This document shows, piece after piece, positions 8,801 through 38,546 of a DNA stretch of 46,076 nucleotides. The notes below the pieces were generated by a model. The model searched no databases. It had not been told where the DNA came from and worked only from the letters and a program-made list of their open reading frames with translations. The position numbers and the translations under genes are program-made. How positions within the stretch are numbered: position 1 is the stretch's first letter; every line of letters begins with the position of its first letter. The DNA comes from an uncultured Spirochaetales bacterium (GTDB lineage Bacteria > Spirochaetota > Spirochaetia > Sphaerochaetales > Sphaerochaetaceae): contig CADBSO010000011.1 in the NCBI GenBank assembly GCA_902797395.1, positions 1 to 46,076 on the forward strand, given 5' to 3'.

Positions 8801-9052
8801 TTCCGACTCAATCATCTTCAGCCCGGACAAGGTGGCCATATCATCCTCAATCACCTTCGTCACATCGTGTTCTATGTCTTGAGCATCCGCTCCCGGATAC
8901 ACGGACAACACAACAATTTCGGGCATAGACAGCGATGGCATGAGGGAAGTGTTTATAGACCGAATGGAAATCAATCCGAAAAACAGCAATGAAATCAGCA
9001 GTATGCCTATGACCGCGGGATGATCAACGGCAAAGCGGCTTATCCTATTCAC
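5855..9052 (-). CDS. RND-family efflux transporter (AcrB/HAE type)
   Basis: 1065 residues with the AcrB architecture: a first transmembrane helix at about 11-29, two large periplasmic domains, and helix bundles around residues 330-480 and 865-1050. In helix 4 VVDGSIVMLEQV keeps the first of the two AcrB aspartates (second replaced by Gly); in helix 10 VVNNGIILIDYTN has Asn where AcrB has the proton-relay Lys, as in many non-proteobacterial pumps. The loop from 940 to 994, before RIKPIFMTAATT, is about 28 residues longer than usual. The start is GTG at 9052 with GGAG seven bases upstream, overlapping the adaptor gene by 8 bases. Substrates cannot be told. Confidence 0.9.
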   Translation of the reverse strand: MNRISRFAVDHPAVIGILLISLLFFGLISIRSINTSLMPSLSMPEIVVLSVYPGADAQDIEHDVTKVIEDDMATLSGLKMIESESGQSVSLITLSFQDGIDAEDKIEEVRYRLSRLRSELPDDLQGDPEALIASSSMVPCISFSVSNSDLDRTYEYLVDEIVPRITRIPGVTTVEVSPDASREISIVMRPDDMASRNISPIDIYKVMSSGSSDFPLGEFSYDGRGVSFKYDGSYKSIADLRNMAVGASDSGVVTRLGDVADIMADRAENPDDVLVGGKRAFMVSVQKRDDGDVIRICSAVKKVISEMERESSGALSISVFNDDSKVTGTTLKAVISSGVLGILMAVLSIWLCLADFKATFIIAVSIPLCILFCVIALSVSGRSLNTMTLSGMVMSLGMVVDGSIVMLEQVYRHLASGRFSIRQSLYRASDEVSGSILGSVATSVVVFIPIILLPGIVGMVLSDVALTLVFSMLASLAVSILAVPFFIRLIKKEGEPIREHRLVNSVFAWIEKRYAFVLKWILGNRKKVVLASVGVLVSSLAFVPLLGFTFIPSVDQAGMYIDFEFPLAYSQQDTRSQALRIADYIKGIDGLDNYRMNVTKGQSILDFGGRNIVSCHVVLVPSGKRRARIQRMIPAIQGDLNSLFPDAKISIRNGGFDSYLAYAAGGGGYGMNLIGEDMRILYAEAERIRNVLNAHPDVMFTRLSTTWDSRSLSLDMIRSNMSDLAVTSLEAGLASALYFRKTEVGRIRESGKDSRYKLSLTSKLKDSPVTDDVLNRIRVRSVAGEMVPFDRISSLSESGTLTFIGRKNRARCISIESSLVSSDLSPVTAHMLNYLKKNPLPQGVERDRTGLIALISDSIPPLFLAALIAVFLVYAVMVMQFERFLQPMIVMVCIPFTFIGVIAGLLLFGTPVSIMSVLAMVALSGTVVNNGIILIDYTNMQRDRHRECRMRGIDSAVLAQSDCDISGKDYRDLSSDWKWELESLERLVIECCASRIKPIFMTAATTVLGVIPMAFGKGEGAELYAPLGQSMFLGLFVSTFLSLAIVPALYYSAEKRRILRMSRSM

Positions 9053-10163
9053 ATCCGATCTCCGCCATCACCTTCTGGCCATCGAACAGAGAATTCTGGC
9101 CGCGAACCACGAACTTCCTTCCGATTCCGGAAGGACCGACAATGACATACTCGCCCTTGATTTCAAAATCAGATCTCTCAAGCATATGCGCAATGCCGAT
9201 CCTCCTGCTATCATCAGGCTTTCCGGATTCGAAATCCACATAATACAAAGCATCGCTTCCGGTAAGCGCGCTCCTCGGCACGCAAATGAAATCACGGGCC
9301 TCATCGGATCCGATTGATATCGCGACATCGACCGAACAGCCGGGAATGAAAACCTCCTTGTCGAACCCGCTGTCAAATGCCACCTTCACTTTAAATGTCT
9401 TGCTTCTAGGATCGACATACGGCTCCACAAGCTCAACCTGACCCGAAGCGGTTTTTCCAGACGAAAGATGAACGATTCGCGCATGAGCACCTTTTCTAAT
9501 AGACCCCAATCCGCTTTCGGGAACATCAGCATAGCAGCAAATACGATCCAAATCGCCAATCAAAGCTATGGGGGAACCCTGCGAAACCGTATCCCCCGCC
9601 TTAACGAAAACAGTCAGAGCCACGCCATCCTTCGGCGCTTTGACATCAGTCCATGACAACTGCAGCGATGCCTGTCTGGTCTGGGCAGCTGATGCGTCCC
9701 TTCTTGCCAAAGCCTCATCATAATCCTGCCTTGAAACGGCGCCCTTGCGATAAAGCTCCTCGACTCTTGAAAACGCGGCTTCGCTTGCAGTCGAAACAGC
9801 AGCCGACATCTCTTCCTGAAGCTGATAAGCCTCCGGATCCACAATTGCCACCACCTGATTCTCGCTCACCCTATCTCCGGAAGCGACTGCGATTTCCAGA
9901 ACCTTTCCCGACGCCAACGATACGACAGGAACCATCCGTTGCGACTCAACATGGCTGAGCATGCTGATATGCCTGTCAAGCCTTACAGTCTCCGGCTCAG
10001 CAACCGATACCACGGGAAGTTTGCCTTCAAACGACTCAGCGCGCCTTGCATTTCCTGCAATAGCAAGAATCACGATGGCAGCGGCAACAACCAATGCCGC
10101 AACCAGGATTATGGCAATCCTCCTCCGACTATCAGCCTTTTCCCGCGTCATTTCCGTCCGCAT
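9045..10163 (-). CDS. Periplasmic adaptor (membrane fusion protein, HlyD/AcrA family)
   Basis: 372 residues: an N-terminal membrane anchor (RIAIILVAALVVAAAIVILA), a lipoyl-like half (ASGKVLEIAVASGDRVSENQ), a short helical hairpin around VEELYRKGAVSRQDYDEALA, the second lipoyl half (VKAPKDGVALTVFVKAGDTV) and beta-barrel segments. It bridges the RND pump and the TolC channel. The first ATG (10163) lies inside the 3' end of rlmN, a 32-base overlap; a second in-frame ATG at 10151 is possible. Neither has a strong ribosome-binding site, so translation probably depends on ribosomes finishing rlmN. Confidence 0.88.
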   Translation of the reverse strand: MRTEMTREKADSRRRIAIILVAALVVAAAIVILAIAGNARRAESFEGKLPVVSVAEPETVRLDRHISMLSHVESQRMVPVVSLASGKVLEIAVASGDRVSENQVVAIVDPEAYQLQEEMSAAVSTASEAAFSRVEELYRKGAVSRQDYDEALARRDASAAQTRQASLQLSWTDVKAPKDGVALTVFVKAGDTVSQGSPIALIGDLDRICCYADVPESGLGSIRKGAHARIVHLSSGKTASGQVELVEPYVDPRSKTFKVKVAFDSGFDKEVFIPGCSVDVAISIGSDEARDFICVPRSALTGSDALYYVDFESGKPDDSRRIGIAHMLERSDFEIKGEYVIVGPSGIGRKFVVRGQNSLFDGQKVMAEIGCE

Positions 10164-35465: not shown

Positions 35466-36713
35466 TCAAGTCGAGCTTTTCAGGCCTACCACCTTGCCGC
35501 TCTTGAAATCGCAATAGCAATCGAATCCGTATTCGGCCACGGAATCAAAAAGCTTCTTGCGGCTTTTCACATCCCTGAACACATGCACATAATAGCCTTC
35601 GCCCTGAAGCGCCGACTTCATTTTCAAAACAGAACCGAAATCATCATCCGAATTATAGAAAAGAGCCAATCTGGAAGCCCCTGAAATCCGCATCCCCTTT
35701 TCAGCCAGTATGCTCATTATCCTCTCAAAACCTATCGAAATTCCAACAGCGCCGACCTGTCTTCCTAAAAATTTCCCGATCATTCCATCGTATCTGCCGC
35801 CGCCGGCAATCGATGAGGAGAATTCCTGCGAAACCACCTCCGCAACAATTCCCGTATAATATGACTGTCCGCGAACCAAAACGGGAGAATACGACACGCC
35901 ATATCCTTTCGGAAGCAGAGCGGAAAGCTTTTCAATCACATAACGCAGCTGCGATGAAACCTGACTGGTAGCCTCGCAGTTCAAATCGCCCGACTCTTCC
36001 GATCCAAGCCAGCTTATCAGTTTCCCGATGCTCTCCTGCGCATTTCCAGTCTTAAGCGATGCCGACTTCTCCATAAGCTCGGACGCCACCCCATCTATCC
36101 CGATCTTGTCCTGCTTGTCCAACGAAATGCATACGGTCTCGAAATCCAACTCATCGAACCCGAATGAGAGGAACATGTGCTTCAATATCCTCTTATCGTT
36201 AATCACCAATGTCAGATTCTCAAATCCAAGAAGATGCAATGCGTTGAGGGATGTCAGGAAAAGCTCAATCTCGCAATCAGGGCTTTCATCGCCTATGATG
36301 TCTATATCGCATTGGACAAATTCCCTCAGCCTTCCCTTCTGAGGCCTTTCAGCCCTATAGACGCGACCGGTCTGTATCACCTTGAACGGCATTGGCAGAT
36401 TCGATGCGTTCGCGGAGTAGAATCTGGAAAGAGGAAGCGTGAGATCATAACGCAAAGCCATGTCCGACAGCATCTGACCGCTTTCAATGGCCTTCTGCAG
36501 CTTGTCGCCCCTCTTCATTATCTCGAATATGAGATTGAGATTGCTGCCGCCCTCCGAACGTGATATGTTCTCCACATCCTCAACGGCAGGCGTCTCTATC
36601 CGAAAAAAACCCGATCTCTGATAGAAATCAAGAATCTTCCCAAGAACCTCATTGCGCAGAAACGTCTCGCTTATGCCGCGATCGCACATTCCTCTTACAG
36701 GACTTGTTTTCAT
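35466..36713 (-). CDS. hisS: Histidyl-tRNA synthetase
   Basis: 415 residues. Class II motifs are clear: motif 2 around VYRAERPQKGRLREFVQCDI, the ALRYDLTLPLSRF block, and the histidine-binding and motif 3 region GGGRYDGMIGKF with VGISIGFERI. The C-terminal anticodon domain is about 80 residues. It charges tRNA-His. The ATG overlaps the stop of the oadA-like gene by four bases (ATGA). Confidence 0.95.
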   Translation of the reverse strand: MKTSPVRGMCDRGISETFLRNEVLGKILDFYQRSGFFRIETPAVEDVENISRSEGGSNLNLIFEIMKRGDKLQKAIESGQMLSDMALRYDLTLPLSRFYSANASNLPMPFKVIQTGRVYRAERPQKGRLREFVQCDIDIIGDESPDCEIELFLTSLNALHLLGFENLTLVINDKRILKHMFLSFGFDELDFETVCISLDKQDKIGIDGVASELMEKSASLKTGNAQESIGKLISWLGSEESGDLNCEATSQVSSQLRYVIEKLSALLPKGYGVSYSPVLVRGQSYYTGIVAEVVSQEFSSSIAGGGRYDGMIGKFLGRQVGAVGISIGFERIMSILAEKGMRISGASRLALFYNSDDDFGSVLKMKSALQGEGYYVHVFRDVKSRKKLFDSVAEYGFDCYCDFKSGKVVGLKSST

Positions 36714-38389
36714 GATATGACGCAGACCTTTGATGACTTGGAAATCGAATCACCCGGCTTCACAGACAGCTCGCTGACGGATCCGGAACGCGGAGACACC
36801 AATTCGAATTGCCTTCCGCCGGAGGAATAGACCGCAAGAACCTCACCTCTGCCGATTTTTCCGCCATTCTGAACGGAAACGGAAACTATGCTGCCTTCAG
36901 CGCCGCTTTTCACTACCGTAGATGAATTGCCGGAAGCCTGAGAAGGCGCTGGCGATGGCATTTCCGACTTGAGCCTAACGCCATTAACCTTGCTCTTGCC
37001 CGTAAGGAACATTATCCCCTTCTCCTTACAGCTCGCCGCAATGAATACGTTCTCATCCGTGCAAGGCAAGCCATTGCTCCTAAGAACCTCCTTAGCCGCC
37101 TCAACGCCTTTCTTCGGATCCCTGTTGTTTATGTCGATGCATTTCTCCTTAGTAGGCTCAAGCTTCAATTGCTCGCGAGCGATTGCTACGACCTCAGGAT
37201 CCGGATCAACAGGAGTCTTGCCGAAATAGCCGAGAACCATTTTGCCGTATCCTTCAGCGATCTTCTTCCACTTTCCGAACATGACATTGTTGAAAGCCTG
37301 CTGGAAATAGAATTGCGAAACCGGTGTCACAGATGTCCCATATCCGCCCTTGGCGACCGTCTCGCCCATAGCTTCGACAATCTCAGGATATTTTTCCATG
37401 AGACCATTATCCCTCAGCATCTGGGTATTTGCGGTCAAGGCGCCTCCGGGGAGAGGAAAGAAGGGAATTTCCGGATTCACGGACGAAGCCTCCGGAGGAA
37501 GGAAGTAGTCCGACATGCATTCCTTGAACACATTCTCAGCCTTCTGAATCTTGCTTATGTCTATCTCCTCGCCCTTGTCATTCACCAGAACATAATCAGT
37601 ATGCCTGAGAGCATGCCACATGGTTATTATGTCAACCTGACAGGTTCCGCCCGAAACCGGCTGCATGGAGAGATCCACGATATTCGCGCCGGCGCTTATC
37701 GCTTGCATGTATTGCTGTATGCAGCATCCGGCAGTATCATGAGAGTGCATCGCAATTGGAACATCCGGTCCGAGAATCTCGCGCGCCTTCCGTATCGTAT
37801 CGTAAACATACTTGGGGGTGGAAGTTCCGGAAGCATCCTTATAGCAGAGGGAATCAAACGGAATCTTAGCATCCATTATGTTATGAAGTATCATCTCATA
37901 GAAAGCCGGATCATGCGCGCCCTTGGCATTAGGCGGCAAGCTCATCATCGTTATCACCGCCTCGTGCTTCAGCCCCGCATTCCTTATGGATCTGGCGCTA
38001 TCGATCATATTGTTGACATCATTAAGCGCATCGAAATTCCTTATTGTCGTCATTCCGTGCTTTTTGAAAAGCCTCGCATGCAAATCTATTATATCGCTGC
38101 TCTGGCTTTCAAGACCTACGACATTCACACCCCTTGAAAGGGTTTGCAGATTTATGCCGTCCCCGACAGTCCTTCTGAATTCGTCCATCATGGCGAAAGC
38201 ATCCTCGTTGGTATAAAAATACAACGCCTGGAATCTGGCTCCGCCACCGGCCTCGAAATGATCGATTCCCGCCTCCGCAGCAGCCGCGACAGCCTTCATG
38301 AAATCCTTTGTGAACACTCTGGCTCCATACACTGACTGGAACCCGTCCCTGAACGCAGTGCACATGAACCTAATCGGTTTCTTGCCCAT
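36710..38389 (-). CDS. OadA/PycB-type carboxyltransferase with a biotinyl-like domain that lacks the biotinylated lysine
   Basis: 559 residues from ATG 38389 (GGAG about ten bases upstream; a GTG at 38398 sits too close). The carboxyltransferase domain is intact: FRDGFQSVYG, CYKDASG with the carbamylated metal-site Lys, and MHSHDTAG with the two His ligands, then the OadA-type C-terminal domain. A Ser/Pro linker leads to a biotinyl/lipoyl fold (GSIVSVSVQNGGKIGRGEV to VCVIS), but the AMKM site is replaced by SGGR; Gly525 stands where the biotin Lys should be. So it cannot be biotinylated there. It may work with a separate biotin carrier, or decarboxylate without one. Confidence 0.88.
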   Translation of the reverse strand: MGKKPIRFMCTAFRDGFQSVYGARVFTKDFMKAVAAAAEAGIDHFEAGGGARFQALYFYTNEDAFAMMDEFRRTVGDGINLQTLSRGVNVVGLESQSSDIIDLHARLFKKHGMTTIRNFDALNDVNNMIDSARSIRNAGLKHEAVITMMSLPPNAKGAHDPAFYEMILHNIMDAKIPFDSLCYKDASGTSTPKYVYDTIRKAREILGPDVPIAMHSHDTAGCCIQQYMQAISAGANIVDLSMQPVSGGTCQVDIITMWHALRHTDYVLVNDKGEEIDISKIQKAENVFKECMSDYFLPPEASSVNPEIPFFPLPGGALTANTQMLRDNGLMEKYPEIVEAMGETVAKGGYGTSVTPVSQFYFQQAFNNVMFGKWKKIAEGYGKMVLGYFGKTPVDPDPEVVAIAREQLKLEPTKEKCIDINNRDPKKGVEAAKEVLRSNGLPCTDENVFIAASCKEKGIMFLTGKSKVNGVRLKSEMPSPAPSQASGNSSTVVKSGAEGSIVSVSVQNGGKIGRGEVLAVYSSGGRQFELVSPRSGSVSELSVKPGDSISKSSKVCVIS

Positions 38390-38546
38390 CCGAATCACTC
38401 TCCTTATCCTCTTCTTTTGCTATGCCCTCTTTCCTCAATATCCTGTTGTCGATGAATCTGCTTATGGCTTTGGTAAGGTAAATCAATGCGAATAAAGCGG
38501 CAAAAGCCGCAATGACTATGATTATCGCTTTAAGCAACCTGATCAT
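38370..38546 (-). CDS. Small single-helix membrane protein, OadG-like
   Basis: 58 residues, MIRLLKAIIIVIAAFAALFA followed by LIYLTKAISRFIDN and an acidic hydrophilic tail. One N-terminal membrane helix with a charged tail is the layout of the gamma subunit of oxaloacetate decarboxylase, which tethers OadA to OadB. It precedes and overlaps the oadA-like gene, which supports the call; sequence similarity is too low to be sure. No strong ribosome-binding site precedes the ATG at 38546. The beta subunit (OadB) is not in the window. Confidence 0.6.
   Translation of the reverse strand: MIRLLKAIIIVIAAFAALFALIYLTKAISRFIDNRILRKEGIAKEEDKESDSDGQETD

Follow-up and report, generated by a model that had tools for sequence, protein, structure and literature searches.

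A biotinyl domain without its lysine in a spirochaete OadA-like carboxyltransferase that probably works in trans on a separate biotin carrier

What does a biotin-dependent carboxyltransferase do when its own biotinyl domain has no lysine to carry the cofactor? The question is raised by a gene in the window, by which we mean the whole stretch of 46,076 nucleotides analysed here, from a draft metagenome-assembled genome of the Sphaerochaetaceae (G000). ORF reading and translation show the frame at 36713-38389 to be intact, and its 559-aa product (P0001) and surroundings comprise the following features.

36713..38389, minus strand: oadA-like gene, 559 aa, an OadA/5S-type oxaloacetate (pyruvate) carboxyltransferase with a degenerate C-terminal biotinyl domain
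36710-36712, minus strand: stop codon of the oadA-like gene
37457..38389, minus strand: HMGL-like TIM barrel, the catalytic carboxyltransferase part (residues 1-311)
38345-38347, 37838-37840, 37745-37747 and 37739-37741, minus strand: metal-site residues D15, K184, H215 and H217, respectively
36974..37456, minus strand: PYC_OADA conserved carboxylase domain (residues 312-472; Pfam PF02436, E 5e-27)
36713..36919, minus strand: degenerate biotinyl domain (residues 491-559; from the PF00364 match, the alignment and the AlphaFold2 model)
36806..36826, minus strand: former biotin-lysine turn, SSGGRQF in place of EAMKMEN
38370..38546, minus strand: 58-aa ORF with a single transmembrane segment, overlapping the oadA start and sitting in the place of oadG

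The catalytic part of P0001 has the hallmarks of a working enzyme. Pfam recognises HMGL-like, PYC_OADA and Biotin_lipoyl domains (the last as PF00364, residues 494-558, E 2.4e-6), phmmer aligns the protein to the transcarboxylase 5S subunit (1RQB/1RQH, E 1.5e-47), and a Foldseek search with the AlphaFold2 model (mean pLDDT 89) returns the beta chain of a two-subunit pyruvate carboxylase, 5S (1RQB/1RQH), pyruvate carboxylases and Vibrio OadA. Residues of the metal site and the catalytic centre (D15, Q18, K184, H215, H217 and T355) are invariant in an alignment of 44 homologues, bearing out the first-pass annotation of this DNA, which had noted a complete metal site. Within the genus the catalytic part is under strong constraint (pN of 0.06-0.12 against pS of 0.76-0.91), synonymous sites being mostly saturated for the purpose of dN/dS. 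The 58-aa ORF at the oadA start has 61-aa counterparts in both congeners (G001 and G002), while relatives have oadG there; it has no Ala-rich C-terminal helix of the oadG kind, and matched no Pfam or NCBIfam family above cut-off in a search whose query reference was offset by a few codons.

The biotin site, by comparison, is dead. The live motif EAMKMENE aligns with SSGGRQFE, placing Gly525 (36815-36817) at the position of the biotin lysine, so that the annotation was exact in reading GGR where AMKM is expected. The orthologues in the two congeners are 75-76% identical to P0001 and have glycine at the same position, within the motifs SDNGKEY and DSNGKEY. Sequencing error, a possibility raised at the outset, is excluded by this identical dead position in both. 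The lysine has not moved to a neighbouring position either: the next residue is Arg526 in P0001, and the lysine that follows one residue later in the congeners is not conserved. The domain, joined to the rest of the protein by a linker of ~20 residues, is nevertheless predicted to be well folded (AlphaFold2 pLDDT 93-97), with strands 517-523 and 526-531 linked by a tight turn where live domains carry the biotinyl lysine. In most live relatives the biotinyl domain comes after a 'YTVTVNGK..YGVKL' hairpin, which P0001 lacks.

Loss of the lysine is rare in the family, but it has happened repeatedly. Among about 150 distinct homologues, mainly from spirochaetes, intact ORFs without the lysine were confined to the window's genus (three genomes: G000, G001 and G002), genus g44 of family f23 (four of the five members sampled) and L071 of G414, where the motif reads FMMM. 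Parsimony requires four changes, three of them forced by well-supported branches, giving at least three independent losses; a single origin was rejected, as placing the dead proteins in one clade yields a p-AU of 4e-147. In live members the biotin arm lies within OadA and oadB is encoded beside the gene (139 of 144), whereas oadB is missing from the neighbourhood of all eight dead genes against 5/144 live ones (Fisher p 2e-10; p 1e-4 when the three losses are counted instead of genes). The hairpin, too, is gone from all three dead lineages. G114, whose protein is sister to the dead g44 proteins, retains the lysine and has already lost both the hairpin and the oadB linkage, in keeping with a stepwise process in which the lysine was probably lost last.

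Other arrangements of the arm were seen in the same set of homologues. Sphaerochaetaceae OadA proteins (L006, L012, L014 and others) commonly carry two to three tandem live biotinyl domains and reach about 830 aa. L101 (G038:C4:64844-65044) has a frameshift in OadA ahead of the biotinyl arm, and the arm goes on in a frame of its own of 114 aa, either through an assembly error or as a real split. L200 and L201 (G108, G083) have ESMKEE for EAMKME and keep the lysine.

If P0001 has no arm of its own, does its genome encode another? The annotation had proposed a search for a free carrier, a biotin ligase and OadB, and all three were found in G000. Contig C143 holds a cluster in the order acyl-CoA carboxyltransferase, OadG, BCCP and OadB, in which the BCCP is a live free carrier of 128-129 aa with the motif EALKMEN. 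Above cut-off, Pfam Biotin_lipoyl matches just two proteins in G000, P0001 and this BCCP, and only the BCCP has the lysine. C143 also provides the sole OAD_beta match of the genome, the window having none. A biotin ligase is encoded in G000, and G002 contains a biotin-ligase motif. These are draft assemblies, with G000 87.5% complete, and they may lack a second OadA or a further carrier that the organisms have. Clusters of the C143 type recur in G001, G002, G094, G155 and G414, and in G131 with the carboxyltransferase cut by a contig end, so that all three dead lineages have an acyl-CoA carboxyltransferase-OadG-live BCCP-OadB cluster elsewhere in the genome. In G175, which has a dead OadA, no OAD_beta match was obtained and the acyl-CoA carboxyltransferase was not located. 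Presence of the acyl-CoA carboxyltransferase is not sufficient for loss of the lysine, since five genomes that have it (G012, G029, G074, G088 and G093) keep a live OadA.

Two side observations concern relatives of these components. In the window, a membrane-fusion (RND adaptor-like) protein at 9045-10163 (minus strand) gives a weak Biotin_lipoyl match at 9558-9647; it adjoins an RND transporter and has no relation to biotin. In G002 (L138 8746-9825, contig C22), a second, standalone OadB-like gene, 37% identical, has apparent shikimate-pathway genes for neighbours and neither a carboxyltransferase nor a carrier adjoining it; several relatives likewise have a second, weaker copy of OadB.

The reading that we consider likely is that P0001 is an OadA/5S-type oxaloacetate/pyruvate:biotin carboxyltransferase whose own biotin arm has been retired and which acts in trans on a free carrier. 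Use of a carrier in trans is argued for by the invariant catalytic residues, the dead site shared by the congeners, the repeated losses, the unlinking of oadB and the separate cluster; the annotation had named a separate carrier as one of two options, and the genome supports that branch. P0001 would move the carboxyl group of oxaloacetate onto the biotin of the carrier encoded at the second locus (G000:C143). The loaded carrier could then pass it to the acyl-CoA carboxyltransferase, making the whole a transcarboxylase, most likely converting acetyl-CoA to malonyl-CoA, and/or to OadB, with export of Na+. That P0001 physically uses this carrier is our inference, as are the nature of the acyl-CoA and the direction in which carboxyl groups flow; the oadA and BCCP loci are unlinked in G000, and their pairing is putative. 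A pyruvate carboxylase relying on a separate biotin carboxylase was also considered and rejected, no biotin carboxylase having been found in the genus.

Several characterised systems resemble parts of this arrangement. P0001 shares with OadA of the Klebsiella/Vibrio type (TIGR01108) the order of carboxyltransferase, PYC_OADA and biotinyl domains as well as the metal-site residues, and G000 encodes both OadB and OadG; unlike them, P0001 lacks the biotin lysine, the hairpin and the oadB linkage, and scores 218.1 bits against the curated NCBIfam cut-off of 756.5. The Propionibacterium transcarboxylase (5S + 1.3S + 12S) offers a parallel in that G000 likewise has a 5S-like carboxyltransferase without its own biotin, a free carrier and an acyl-CoA carboxyltransferase matching 12S. 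It differs in that the G000 genes are unlinked and their complex is putative, OadB and OadG are present, and methylmalonyl-CoA mutase is not; moreover, the 5S match stops before the C-terminal domain of P0001, indicating that 5S has no such remnant. In Enterococcus faecalis, the biotin acceptor that serves OadA is a distinct protein, OadD (PMC6193673). This OadA-OadD-OadB-OadH system pairs carboxyltransferase and carrier as proposed here, although its genes form one citrate locus, whereas in G000 the carrier sits in an acyl-CoA carboxyltransferase cluster and P0001 retains a dead biotinyl domain. The C143 cluster itself resembles the MmdADCB methylmalonyl-CoA decarboxylase in matching mmdA, MmdD, MmdC and OAD_beta, but the first three matches are below family cut-offs. 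A biotin-free OadA with a separate carrier is therefore already known, from E. faecalis and by analogy from 5S/1.3S/12S. New, as far as our literature searches show, are the retention of a dead biotinyl domain in OadA, the repeated loss of the lysine in association with the unlinking of oadB and with a carrier cluster elsewhere, and a co-occurrence pattern that makes a bypass of acetyl-CoA carboxylase (ACC) testable.

Why, then, is the dead domain still there? Plant BADCs, which are BCCP-like proteins without a biotinylation motif, have an assembly role (PMC11926652), and the domain of P0001 could similarly act as a docking or glue module that positively places the separate carrier. By Pfam match, alignment and predicted structure it is a biotinyl fold without the lysine, it is predicted to fold well, its reading frame is intact in each of the three species, and its pN stays under pS (0.36 against 0.81 between G001 and G002). 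Its sequence has fared otherwise. Within the genus the domain is only 28-52% identical, against 83-91% for the remainder of the protein, while live domains attached to equally diverged remainders average 67-76%; divergence is thus ~2x that of live domains, and a domain evolving this fast gives no argument for a dedicated docking function. The hairpin before it has also disappeared from all three dead lineages. BADCs, furthermore, are separate subunits of an enzyme that has a biotin carboxylase, whereas the domain of P0001 is a C-terminal part of the protein and G000 yields no biotin carboxylase match. We regard a BADC-like role as unlikely. The annotation, which had called the fold well preserved and the domain kept for another use, was right about the fold; the sequence is not preserved, and the divergence speaks against the other use. 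At the sequence level, constraint on the domain appears relaxed yet not gone, with no new dedicated function indicated, and we postulate that what persists is probably a relaxed remnant, with a fold that stability still requires or that continues to be tolerated.

The second option in the annotation, a biotin-independent reaction, fares worse. P0001, according to the alignment, cannot be biotinylated at the usual site, which would suit a biotin-independent oxaloacetate decarboxylase or some other biotin-free chemistry of the TIM barrel; however, the residues that make up the active site in the biotin-dependent family are invariant, and the genome retains a carrier, a ligase and OadB, making such a reaction very improbable. 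That the gene is simply degraded, or an artefact of a metagenome assembly, might be suspected from its fast-evolving C-terminus, but three genomes with intact ORFs, a shared dead site and a strongly constrained catalytic part leave this explanation hardly tenable.

Returning to a P0001 that serves a free carrier, we asked what the carrier delivers. The C143 acyl-CoA carboxyltransferase is of the PccB/MmdA/12S type (match to 12S 1ON3, E 1.6e-160), and its closest solved structures include transcarboxylase 12S and the Thermotoga maritima PCC-beta structure 1VRG. A methylmalonyl-CoA/propionate pathway was rejected, as methylmalonyl-CoA mutase (PF01642) gave no match in G000, G001, G002 or g44; we infer malonyl-CoA to be more likely than methylmalonyl-CoA. 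No match to biotin carboxylase (PF02785) was obtained in G000, G001 or G002, nor to AccA/AccD in the genus, and yet FabD is present in the genus, with FabD-FabG-FabF side by side in G000 and FabD, FabF and acyl carrier protein in G002. The biotin carboxylase of ACC has been noted as missing from Spirochaetes and Thermotogales (PMC3199775).

It is quite conceivable that OadA, BCCP and the acyl-CoA carboxyltransferase form an oxaloacetate:acetyl-CoA transcarboxylase that replaces ACC and would provide fatty-acid synthesis with malonyl-CoA at no cost in ATP and with no need for biotin carboxylase. Among spirochaete genomes without biotin carboxylase, the acyl-CoA carboxyltransferase is present in 15/15 of those with FabD and absent from 10 of the 11 without it (Fisher p 2e-6, a statistic that ignores the relatedness of the genomes and is not phylogenetically corrected). 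In the control genome of T. maritima, FabD, Carboxyl_trans and OAD_beta were likewise matched and biotin carboxylase was not. Together, the co-occurrence and the T. maritima set suggest that malonyl-CoA is made by transcarboxylation from oxaloacetate. Gene neighbourhoods point the same way: in G006/G025 a FabD-carboxyltransferase-FabF-FabG-dehydratase-like cluster encloses the carboxyltransferase, and that of G042 adjoins a ketosynthase, in a neighbourhood with many overlapping frames that is partly resolved. Against such a bypass, OadB is kept, the g44 gene context points to malonyl-CoA breakdown, and searches with simple motifs over about 1.1 Mb of G002 found neither FabZ nor FabH, so its fatty-acid pathway may be partial. 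In nine other Sphaerochaetaceae (G008, G009, G010, G011, G013, G014, G015, G020 and G026), FabD, biotin carboxylase and the acyl-CoA carboxyltransferase are all under cut-off, which suggests that these have no fatty-acid synthesis of their own.

The main rival of the bypass is a shared role in a Na+ pump, in which OadA (from oxaloacetate) and the acyl-CoA carboxyltransferase (from malonyl-CoA) would both load one BCCP and OadB would decarboxylate it, with no net transfer from oxaloacetate to an acyl-CoA. The cluster retains OadB and OadG in all three members of the genus. In g44 it lies amid genes that, named by eye from sequence, are PreT/PreA-like or encode an aminotransferase, an aldehyde dehydrogenase and a uracil permease, an apparent catabolic route from uracil through beta-alanine and malonate semialdehyde to malonyl-CoA; in G414 a beta-ureidopropionase-like gene adjoins the cluster. 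On the other hand, the genus keeps FabD with neither biotin carboxylase nor AccA/AccD and so needs a source of malonyl-CoA, beta-ureidopropionase and malonate CoA-transferase-like queries have no homologue in the stretches of G002 searched, and G175 combines a dead OadA with no OadB match. We hold the pump reading to be somewhat doubtful as the main role, though given one shared carrier it and the bypass are compatible and not exclusive. Dimroth and Hilpert (1984) are reported to have carboxylated acetyl-CoA by running Na+ pumps of this kind in reverse. As a separate observation, L216, L219, L332 and L330 (G094, G114) combine PreT/PreA-like, aminotransferase, CoA-acylating aldehyde dehydrogenase-like and uracil permease genes with acyl-CoA carboxyltransferase-OadG-BCCP-OadB, and look like a route of uracil breakdown whose last step is a malonyl-CoA decarboxylase that pumps Na+.

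Text searches found no paper on how Spirochaetes and Thermotogales with fatty-acid genes make malonyl-CoA, nor, with partial journal coverage, any describing its synthesis by transcarboxylation. We tentatively propose that a split transcarboxylase, composed of a biotin-less OadA, a free BCCP and a PccB-like carboxyltransferase, feeds fatty-acid synthesis without ATP in ACC-less spirochaetes and perhaps in Thermotoga, and that the carboxyltransferases share carriers and OadA repeatedly discards its own arm. The co-occurrence names candidate proteins for ACC-free malonyl-CoA formation, and three proteins in purified form plus two substrates would be enough to put the proposal to the test. That one enzyme family has lost the biotin lysine three separate times, in each case in association with a carrier cluster elsewhere, makes it a clean example from nature of a swinging arm on a covalent tether giving way to a soluble arm held in common, and the borrowed carrier may be how these bacteria arrive at malonyl-CoA, the precursor of fatty acids, when the customary enzyme is missing.
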